This document shows, in pieces, positions 19,905 to 22,900 of a stretch of 34,695 nucleotides of DNA (position 1 is the first letter of the stretch; each line of letters begins with the position of its first letter). Origin of the DNA: Holophagaceae bacterium (GTDB lineage Bacteria > Acidobacteriota > Holophagae > Holophagales > Holophagaceae); the NCBI GenBank assembly GCA_025357545.1, contig JANXPB010000119.1:1-34695 (forward strand), in the 5' to 3' direction. The notes beneath the pieces are model-generated. The model was not told the DNA's origin and did no database searches. It was given only the letters and a program-made list of their open reading frames with translations. A program made the position numbers and the translations under genes.

Positions 19905-22900
19905 ATGCCCAAGGACCTCTCCGATCATCCGCTCCTGCAGAACCTAAACCCGCCCCAGCGGGAGGCGGTGATGCACACCGAAGGGCCGCTGCTGATCCTG
20001 GCGGGGGCGGGTTCCGGCAAGACCACGGTCATCACGCGGCGCATCGCGTGGCTCATCGAGGAGCGCGGCGCCCATCCCGGTTCCATTTTGGCGATGACCT
20101 TCACCAACAAGGCCGCCGAGGAGATGCGGGAGCGCGTGGCGACCCTGGTCTCGGTGCCCGTGGCCCAGCTCTGGGTCAGCACCTTCCACTCGTTTTGCAC
20201 CCGCATCCTGCGCCGGGAAGGGGACCGCACCCCCGTGGGCCGGGATTTCGTCATCTTCGATCCGGCGGATCAGAAGAGCTTGATGAAGCAAGTGTTGACG
20301 GAACTGAAGATGTCCGAGAAACAGTTCCACCCTCGCCGGGTGCTGGAGATGGTGTCGGACTTCAAGAACCGCTGCCTGCTTCCGGAAGAAGCCGCGGAGG
20401 AGGCCCTGGACCCCTGGACCCGCAAGGTCCTGGAGGCCTACACGCTCTATCAGCAGGGCCTGCGGAACCACCGCGCCTGCGACTTCGACGACCTGCTGCT
20501 CTACACCGAGCGCATGTTCCGGGACCCGGTGATGCAGGAAGTCTATGGCACCCGCTTCCGCTATCTGCTGGTGGACGAATACCAGGACACCAACCGCGCC
20601 CAGTACCTGATGGTCCAGCACCTGGCGAGGCGGCACCACAACCTCTGCGTCGTGGGGGACGAAGACCAGTGTCTTGAGGCCAGCACTCAAATCCGCATGG
20701 CGGACGGCACCGAAACATCCATTCAAGGAATTCAGGCTGGAGACATGGTGCAGTCGGCGATGGGGAGCGGTGTTTTCCGTCCGGCCAGGGTCCTTCGGGC
20801 CGGCCGCCGGAACTATTCTGGCGCCGGGGTGGCCATCACCACGACCTCCGGACGCCGGGTCGTGAGCACACCGGAGCACGTGCATTTCGCGGGGTATCGG
20901 CTGGGCCTGAGCCCTCAAGTCCACCTCGTCTACCTGATGGAAAAGCGAGGAGTCGGATTCCGCCTTGGGACCTCCCAGGTCCATGCGCGAGGCCAAGTGA
21001 AACCCGTGGTGGGATTTCTTCAACGCTCCCGCCAGGAGCATGCGGATGCCCTATGGATCCTTTCAACACATTCTTCAGCAAACGAAGCGAGGTTGCAGGA
21101 ATGCCTCCACTCCCTGCGCTACCAGATCCCGACGCTTCCCTTCGTACCACGCAAGGGAGCTTCCAAGAACGGGTTGGTCCATGATCCGGAGATGATCCGG
21201 CGGGTCTTCGCCGAATTCACGACGGCCGATTCCGCCGACAGGCTGCTGCGGGATCTAGGCATGGCTCAGGAAGCGCCCCATCACCGGGCCCAGTCCTCCG
21301 TGGGAGCCAGGCGGAATATCGTCATCACCCTTTGTGGTGATCGACAGGGAAAGCGCCCCCTGCACCGGATTTCCATGGTGGGACGGGACCATGAGGGGCG
21401 AACGGCCCTCGAAGGGCTCGGCTATTCTGTGAGGCCAGCCAAAGCCGGGTCGCTCAGCTGGCGCTTCGAGACCTGCGCCAAGGAATTTTCGGTCATTCGA
21501 AATGCGGCACAACGCATCCGGCAGCACCTTGATGCGGATATTTCTCTCCAGGCGAGCTTGGCTGAAACCCCAGGGCGGGAGGGCAACAGCCTGCCTTTCC
21601 TGCCCGCTTGCAATGTGAAGCAAGGCATGGCGCTTTTTGATGGGGAGGGCGGATTCGAAGTGGTGGCCAAGGTGGATCGGATTGACCTGAACTCCGAGGT
21701 TTTCGATCTTGATGTGGAGGGGGTTCACAATTTCATCGCCCAAGGTGTGGTGACCCACAACTCGATCTATGGATGGAGAGGCGCCGACATCCGCAACATT
21801 TTGGATTTCCAGCGGGACTTTCCCGAAGCCGTGCAGATCAAACTCGAACAGAACTACCGCTCCACCCAGAGCATCCTGGACGCCGCCTCTACGGTCATCG
21901 CCAACAACTCGCAGCGCCTCGGGAAAACGCTCTGGACCGAGCGCGGCATCGGCGAACCGATCACCTTTAGGCTTACGGACGATGGCCGGGCCGAGGCGGA
22001 ATGGGTGGTGGCGAAGATCCAGGAAGCGCGGCGCTACGACCGTGACATCCGCATCGCGGTGCTGTACCGCGCCAACTGGCAGTCCCGGCAGCTGGAAGAG
22101 GCCCTGCGCGGCGCGAACCTGCCCTACAAGCTGGTGGGCGGCGTGAAGTTCTACGAACGCCAGGAAGTGAAGGATCTCCTCAGCTACCTTCGGGTCATCT
22201 CGAATCCTTACGATCTGCAGAGCTTCCGCCGGGCCGTGAGCAGCCCCACCCGGGGCGTCGGGCCCACCACCTTGGCAAAAATCGAAGGCGCCATCCCCGA
22301 GAACGGGACAGCGCTGGAAGGCGTGGCCATCCTGTTGCGGTCCGGCGAATTGAAGGGCCGGGCAGGTCGTGAGCTGCATCGCTTCGTGGAGCTGTTCCAC
22401 CGGGCCACTAATGAAGCCTCGGCGCTGGGCCTGGCGGGCCTGGTGCGCTGGACCTTGCATGAGAGCGGCTACCTCCAGATGCTCGAAGATGAAGGCACCC
22501 TCGAAGCCGAAGTACGGGTCCGGAACCTGGAGGAATTCCTGTCGGCGGCGGCCGAATGCGAGGCCCTGGGCCTGCGGCTGGCGGAGTTCCTGGACCGGGT
22601 GACCCTGGCGGCGGACGCGGACCAGGTGGACCAGAGCATCGAGCTATCGCTCATGACCATCCACTGCGCCAAGGGCTTGGAGTTTCCCATCGTCTTCGTG
22701 GTGGGCATGGAGGAGGAGGTCTTCCCCAACCGCCAGGCGCGGGAAACCGACGAGGGTCTGGAAGAGGAGCGGCGCCTCTTCTACGTGGCCATCACCCGGG
22801 CCAAGGCCAAGCTCTACCTGAGCGGTGCGCGGCGGCGGCGCATCATGGGCACGGAGATGCTGGGCATGCCGAGCCGCTTCCTGCGGGAGCTGCCCGAAGG

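Follow-up and report, generated by a model that had tools for sequence, protein, structure and literature searches.

Here we ask what the 364-residue insert in motif III of a Holophagaceae PcrA/UvrD helicase gene is, whether it still moves between genomes, and what kind of endonuclease would move it. The window, by which we mean the whole 34,695-nucleotide stretch of DNA that was analysed, contains an uninterrupted open reading frame on the plus strand (19905–23276) that translates into 1123 residues with zero internal stops. Motif III is split directly after GDEDQ by the insert (20670–21761, plus strand), with ...LCVVGDEDQ upstream and SIYGWRGADIRN... downstream, placing the insertion between the Gln and the Ser of GDEDQ/SIYGWRGAD. 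The locus is laid out as follows:

12601–14718, plus strand: neighbouring gene, SpoIID-domain protein
15509–17743, minus strand: neighbouring gene, ClpA-like ATPase
19905–20669, plus strand: N-extein, PcrA/UvrD helicase residues 1–255, from Walker A (AGAGSGKT) to the GDEDQ of motif III (Pfam UvrD-helicase, 1.8e-83)
20670–21761, plus strand: intein of 364 residues, with Cys1 at 20670–20672, TPEH block B at 20868–20879 and the C-terminal His-Asn at 21756–21761 (AlphaFold2 mean pLDDT 92.4)
20670–20897, plus strand: Hint (splicing) domain, N-terminal part, intein residues 1–76 (Pfam, AlphaFold2 model, Foldseek)
20898–21179, plus strand: GIY-YIG-like endonuclease module, intein residues 77–170 (conservation, predicted beta-beta-alpha-beta-alpha fold, hhalign, BFVD Foldseek)
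20931–20933 (Y88), 20961–20969 (R98-L-G100), 21024–21026 (R119) and 21099–21101 (E144), plus strand: signature-like residues of that module
21180–21281, plus strand: helical linker, residues 171–204, ending in PH and also found in the short phage versions (AlphaFold2 model, sequence comparison)
21282–21581, plus strand: second beta-beta-alpha-beta-alpha module, residues 205–304, a proposed DNA-recognition domain (AlphaFold2 model, Foldseek)
21582–21761, plus strand: Hint domain, C-terminal part, residues 305–364 (Pfam, TIGR01443, AlphaFold2 model)
21762–23276, plus strand: C-extein, SIYGWRGAD..., starting at Ser+1, spliced-protein residues 256–759 and the stop codon (Pfam UvrD_C, 2.6e-73)
23277–25415, minus strand: neighbouring gene, TgpA-type transglutaminase
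26976–28121, minus strand: neighbouring gene, AnmK

The original prediction placed an intein at UvrD/PcrA motif III with boundaries that proved exact to the base, and its figures of 364 residues between GDEDQ and SIYGWRGAD and of 759 residues left after removal (1123 minus 364) were reproduced. The two flanks together match the PcrA model TIGR01073 at 762.6 bits; with the insert in place, this falls short of the equivalog cut-off of 911. Within the host genome (95.6% complete) this is the single PcrA/UvrD gene, the remaining matches being weak and RecB/AddA-like, and the motif III element is the sole intein found. Since the only PcrA-type gene in the genome is interrupted, a functional helicase should depend on splicing. 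The neighbours of the helicase are ordinary chromosomal genes, and no mobile element was seen beside it among the neighbouring genes in the window.

The insert begins CLEAST and terminates GVVTHN, with TPEH at intein residues 67–70, and the class-1 splicing residues are all intact: Cys1, the TPEH block B, the terminal His-Asn and Ser+1, in an open frame, exactly as had been claimed. It matches Pfam Intein_splicing (E=9.5e-12; 45.4 bits against a cut-off of 35.8) and the C-terminal intein model TIGR01443 (26.7 bits against 15.6), both above their cut-offs, and the N-terminal model TIGR01445 below it (14.0 against 24.5 bits). The AlphaFold2 model has a predicted Hint fold that Foldseek aligns with the gp41-1 intein 6qaz at a TM-score, normalised to the target, of 0.87. 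Judged by its sequence, the insert is a class-1 intein, ordinary in itself, and the precursor would splice autocatalytically via Cys1, Asn364 and Ser+1 to give the 759-residue helicase. What is unusual about the element is the type of its endonuclease, not the intein itself.

Searching GTDB genomes at the protein level gave 48 loci, and among the relatives of the window's genome the element was located in eight places, the window included. Another 45 full-length relatives occupy the identical site, and their hosts belong to at least six phyla (Acidobacteriota, Actinomycetota, Pseudomonadota, Chloroflexota, Dormibacterota and Patescibacteria/Nomurabacteria). Every copy whose junctions lie inside its contig interrupts the identical residue pair, begins with Cys1, ends in His-Asn and is followed by Ser or Cys at +1; the minus-strand copies L004 and L007 share that residue pair too. 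Mini-inteins that lack the GIY-YIG-like module also occupy this helicase site in Solirubrobacterales (L054, 759–1406, 216 residues; L055, 3001–3675, 225 residues).

Within the family Holophagaceae the intein is present in 20 of 77 genomes, and most genomes carry the empty allele. The genes of two congeners, 92% (G001) and 88% (G002) identical to the window's over the extein segment searched, are uninterrupted. Two other genomes, G003 and G004, possess inteins only 60% identical to the window's beside exteins that are 90–91% identical. The helicase tree unites the genus in one supported clade (100/93) in which intein-bearing and empty members are intermixed; the intein tree places the window's copy with copies from other genera (g4, g11), and those of G003 and G004 with that of G014. 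A single clade for the inteins of the genus is rejected (p=0.0039; AU p=0.0008 once further family members are included). Between phyla, intein identity is about 50–64% as against about 37–48% for conserved helicase segments, and for Azospirillum and Chloroflexi copies the figures are 64% for inteins and 38% for exteins. GC3 is 68.7% in the window's intein, compared with 89.8% and 84.6% in its exteins.

The empty congener sites, the discordant trees and the GC3 gap together argue for horizontal acquisition, and the suggestion of horizontal entry in the original prediction thus held when GC3 was compared and close relatives were searched for an empty site. On sequence grounds, distribution, trees and GC3 all bear the stamp of horizontal spread, for which homing is the simplest account. 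The element would have entered the window's genus more than once and would still be mobile, not a resident fossil. A separate acidobacterial copy (L011, 3001–4098, gp22) lies in a helicase 46% identical to the window's and has an intein that groups with those of Holophagaceae, and here transfer between distant acidobacteria is likely.

The part of the intein that would drive such movement lies between the two halves of the Hint domain. In the AlphaFold2 model of the whole intein (pLDDT 92), the first module there has a beta-beta-alpha-beta-alpha arrangement at residues 85–151. Its residues Y88, R98-x-G100, R119 and E144 match the GIY-YIG signature in order and, approximately, in spacing. They are kept in 43 to 46 of the 46 members, with an Arg at the position of the second (YIG) Tyr.

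A module profile built from the 46 members and 10 diverse members was aligned by hhalign with GIY-YIG at a score of 26.2 and a probability of 48% (E 1.9e-4, as a single comparison), with 68 columns in register. Decoys reached at most 16.0 (60 column-permuted GIY-YIG profiles) and 16.5 (helicases), and accepted GIY-YIG subfamilies score 9.7–38.3 against each other. The match is significant only with the diverse phage members included; with only the 46 close members the score is 16.3, which is not significant. The T5orf172 and MUG113 sets gave no alignment with the module, a failure that several known GIY-YIG subfamilies likewise show among themselves. The GIY-YIG, LAGLIDADG and HNH Pfam models matched none of the 46 members, single-protein searches of Pfam, NCBIfam, PHROGs and PDB sequences recovered the Hint part only, and the module profile returned nothing useful from PDB sequences. 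In a Foldseek search of viral models (BFVD), several GIY-YIG proteins ranked below three intein-like viral relatives; in the PDB search, GIY-YIG chains were absent among the best 50 matches listed. This module and the linker alone are common to all the divergent phage and plasmid inteins compared (SPO1, RYC, Justusliebigvirus, Thermobispora and a Providencia methylase), and so the catalytic site should sit in the first module. On profile and model evidence we describe the module as GIY-YIG-like, not as a proven member of that family.

The second module, with a predicted beta-beta-alpha-beta-alpha fold at residues 216–287, shows in the model a weak LAGLIDADG-like resemblance without the catalytic helix. 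It is absent from the 275-residue SPO1 version and variable elsewhere, and may be a DNA-recognition domain.

The original prediction regarded the endonuclease region as degenerate and the intein as possibly resident and non-homing, and our results support neither reading. Conservation of the central ∼230 residues extends over six phyla and phages, with purifying selection acting on them, and the distribution is that of a recently moving element. Among eight pairs of related copies with defined values, the GIY-like module (residues 77–170) has dN/dS of 0.03–0.19, below that of the splicing domain in seven, values that are approximate because several pairs have a dS close to saturation; constraint extends to the rest of the insert in the eight pairs. 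M90, G96, R98, G115, R119, E123, W129 and A140 are invariant in the 46 members, and Y88, G100 and E144 nearly so. The region probably seemed degenerate only because the nuclease is of a different type.

It could nevertheless be that the intein splices but that its endonuclease is a dead, resident remnant kept for folding or splicing, as the lack of any LAGLIDADG or HNH profile match, the same-site mini-inteins of 216 and 225 residues without the module, and the disappearance of G100 and E144 from some members might suggest. The existence of those mini-inteins means that loss of the nuclease is possible, a loss absent in the window's copy; it equally indicates that the module is dispensable for keeping the splicing residues, which, with a nuclease module usually more constrained than the splicing domain and with repeated recent gains in one genus that require an active homing enzyme in the family, makes a dead remnant unlikely. 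The members without G100 and E144 are three Burkholderiaceae copies (L042, L043 and L044), which occupy the same site and form an intein clade on a long branch. Because their module is still constrained, these two residues cannot be a universal requirement; the clade may have lost catalysis or taken on a new role, to judge from the sequences.

We consider it similarly improbable that both halves of the central region are LAGLIDADG-type repeats minus the signature helix, which would make the region a divergent nuclease of that family. Nucleases of the I-OnuI type lead the PDB matches listed for the central region, spanning both halves, and the second half has a predicted beta-beta-alpha-beta-alpha order. 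However, the I-OnuI-type matches reach a TM-score of only about 0.2 at a probability of at most 0.57, and neither sheet is preceded by a LAGLIDADG helix. The universal module lacks the acidic residues at the helix end and instead has Y, two R and E in the places expected of GIY-YIG. Comparison with the LAGLIDADG_3 profile stayed at noise (16.1 for the module, 12.7 for the second half), and there were zero LAGLIDADG profile matches in the 46 members. PI-SceI and TliVMA, the LAGLIDADG inteins that head the Foldseek matches of the full intein model, resemble the window's intein in having a Hint domain with an endonuclease nested between blocks B and F, but the window's intein is without LAGLIDADG blocks C and E.

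An HNH nuclease in the second half, read from PHH...RRN...H232, draws on the invariance of H232 and the 93% conservation of H204 in the 46 members, but is very improbable given that H232 sits in a hairpin strand of the model and not in an HNH helix, that PaulScherrer-type phage copies have lost these residues, that the whole half is missing in SPO1, and that no HNH profile match was obtained. Finally, an insert that is simply a conserved part of the helicase and stays unspliced would suit a frame open throughout, but in the face of a complete intein signature and of empty sites in close relatives this reading has next to no chance of being correct.

The element has relatives in phages. UvrD-type helicase inteins of about 275 residues have been annotated in the Bacillus phages SPO1 (gp34.33) and CampHawk (PMC3868849), with the endonuclease type unnamed both in the database record and in that paper. 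They share the motif III site (VGDDDQ/C ... HN/S), the Hint domain and the Y-L-M...R-x-G...R...E module with the window's intein, but lack the second alpha/beta module and are only 26–31% identical in the first. Coliphage records also name an intein-containing UvrD/Rep helicase: the annotated inteins of the Justusliebigvirus phages phi92 and PaulScherrer lie at the same site and are 27–28% identical over their full length, but have Cys at +1 and a diverged second half in which the H232 position is lost. Four ∼146-kb records labelled as Campylobacter phage (MG065639, MG065645, MG065656 and MG065689) match as the Justusliebigvirus-group coliphages do, with equal match length and similar identity, and their host is possibly mislabelled.

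Same-module helicase inteins on a Stanieria plasmid (L174) and a Thermobispora plasmid (L177) sit roughly two residues before the usual position in motif III (GDP/CQ or GDS/CQ), a shifted insertion site. The module further occurs in adenine DNA methylase inteins, on a Providencia rettgeri plasmid (L173, 2501–3340) and in Streptococcus suis prophages (H87–H101), and these methylase inteins are 51% identical between Gammaproteobacteria and Firmicutes. GIY-YIG homing endonucleases such as I-TevI and Seg, found in group I introns or as free-standing phage genes, appear to share with the window's module the predicted beta-beta-alpha-beta-alpha core, the Y, R and E positions and the in-register profile alignment; in contrast to them, the window's module lies inside an intein and has Arg in place of the YIG tyrosine.

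We therefore return to an active homing class-1 intein in the sole pcrA of this genome, equipped with a GIY-YIG-like endonuclease and still mobile, to which we assign a probability of roughly 0.75. The excised intein would carry the GIY-YIG-like nuclease (Y88, R98, R119, E144) together with a second alpha/beta module that probably reads the DNA. The nuclease would cut intein-free pcrA at the motif III sequence, and repair would copy the intein in.

A census of the GIY-YIG superfamily in 2006 found none in inteins (PMC1564403), a split intein with a separate, intervening GIY-YIG gene is known (PMC7891396), and a review lists four homing families generally (PMC7765530). We found no report of a GIY-YIG domain nested in an intein in the open-licence literature, an absence that is weak evidence. 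On balance we lean towards a widespread and apparently undescribed class of inteins, in which a GIY-YIG-type homing endonuclease (Arg for the second Tyr) is joined to a separate DNA-recognition module. The hosts of this class would span at least six bacterial phyla as well as coliphages and phages of Bacillus, the invaded targets being motif III of helicases and, in addition, genes for methylases. Relatives in the model phages SPO1 and PaulScherrer, the latter a coliphage grown on E. coli K-12, make this directly testable. A working GIY-YIG nuclease in the module would mean that inteins have recruited an additional nuclease family; it would also account for the spread of this intein across phyla and provide compact endonucleases directed at a highly conserved helicase site.
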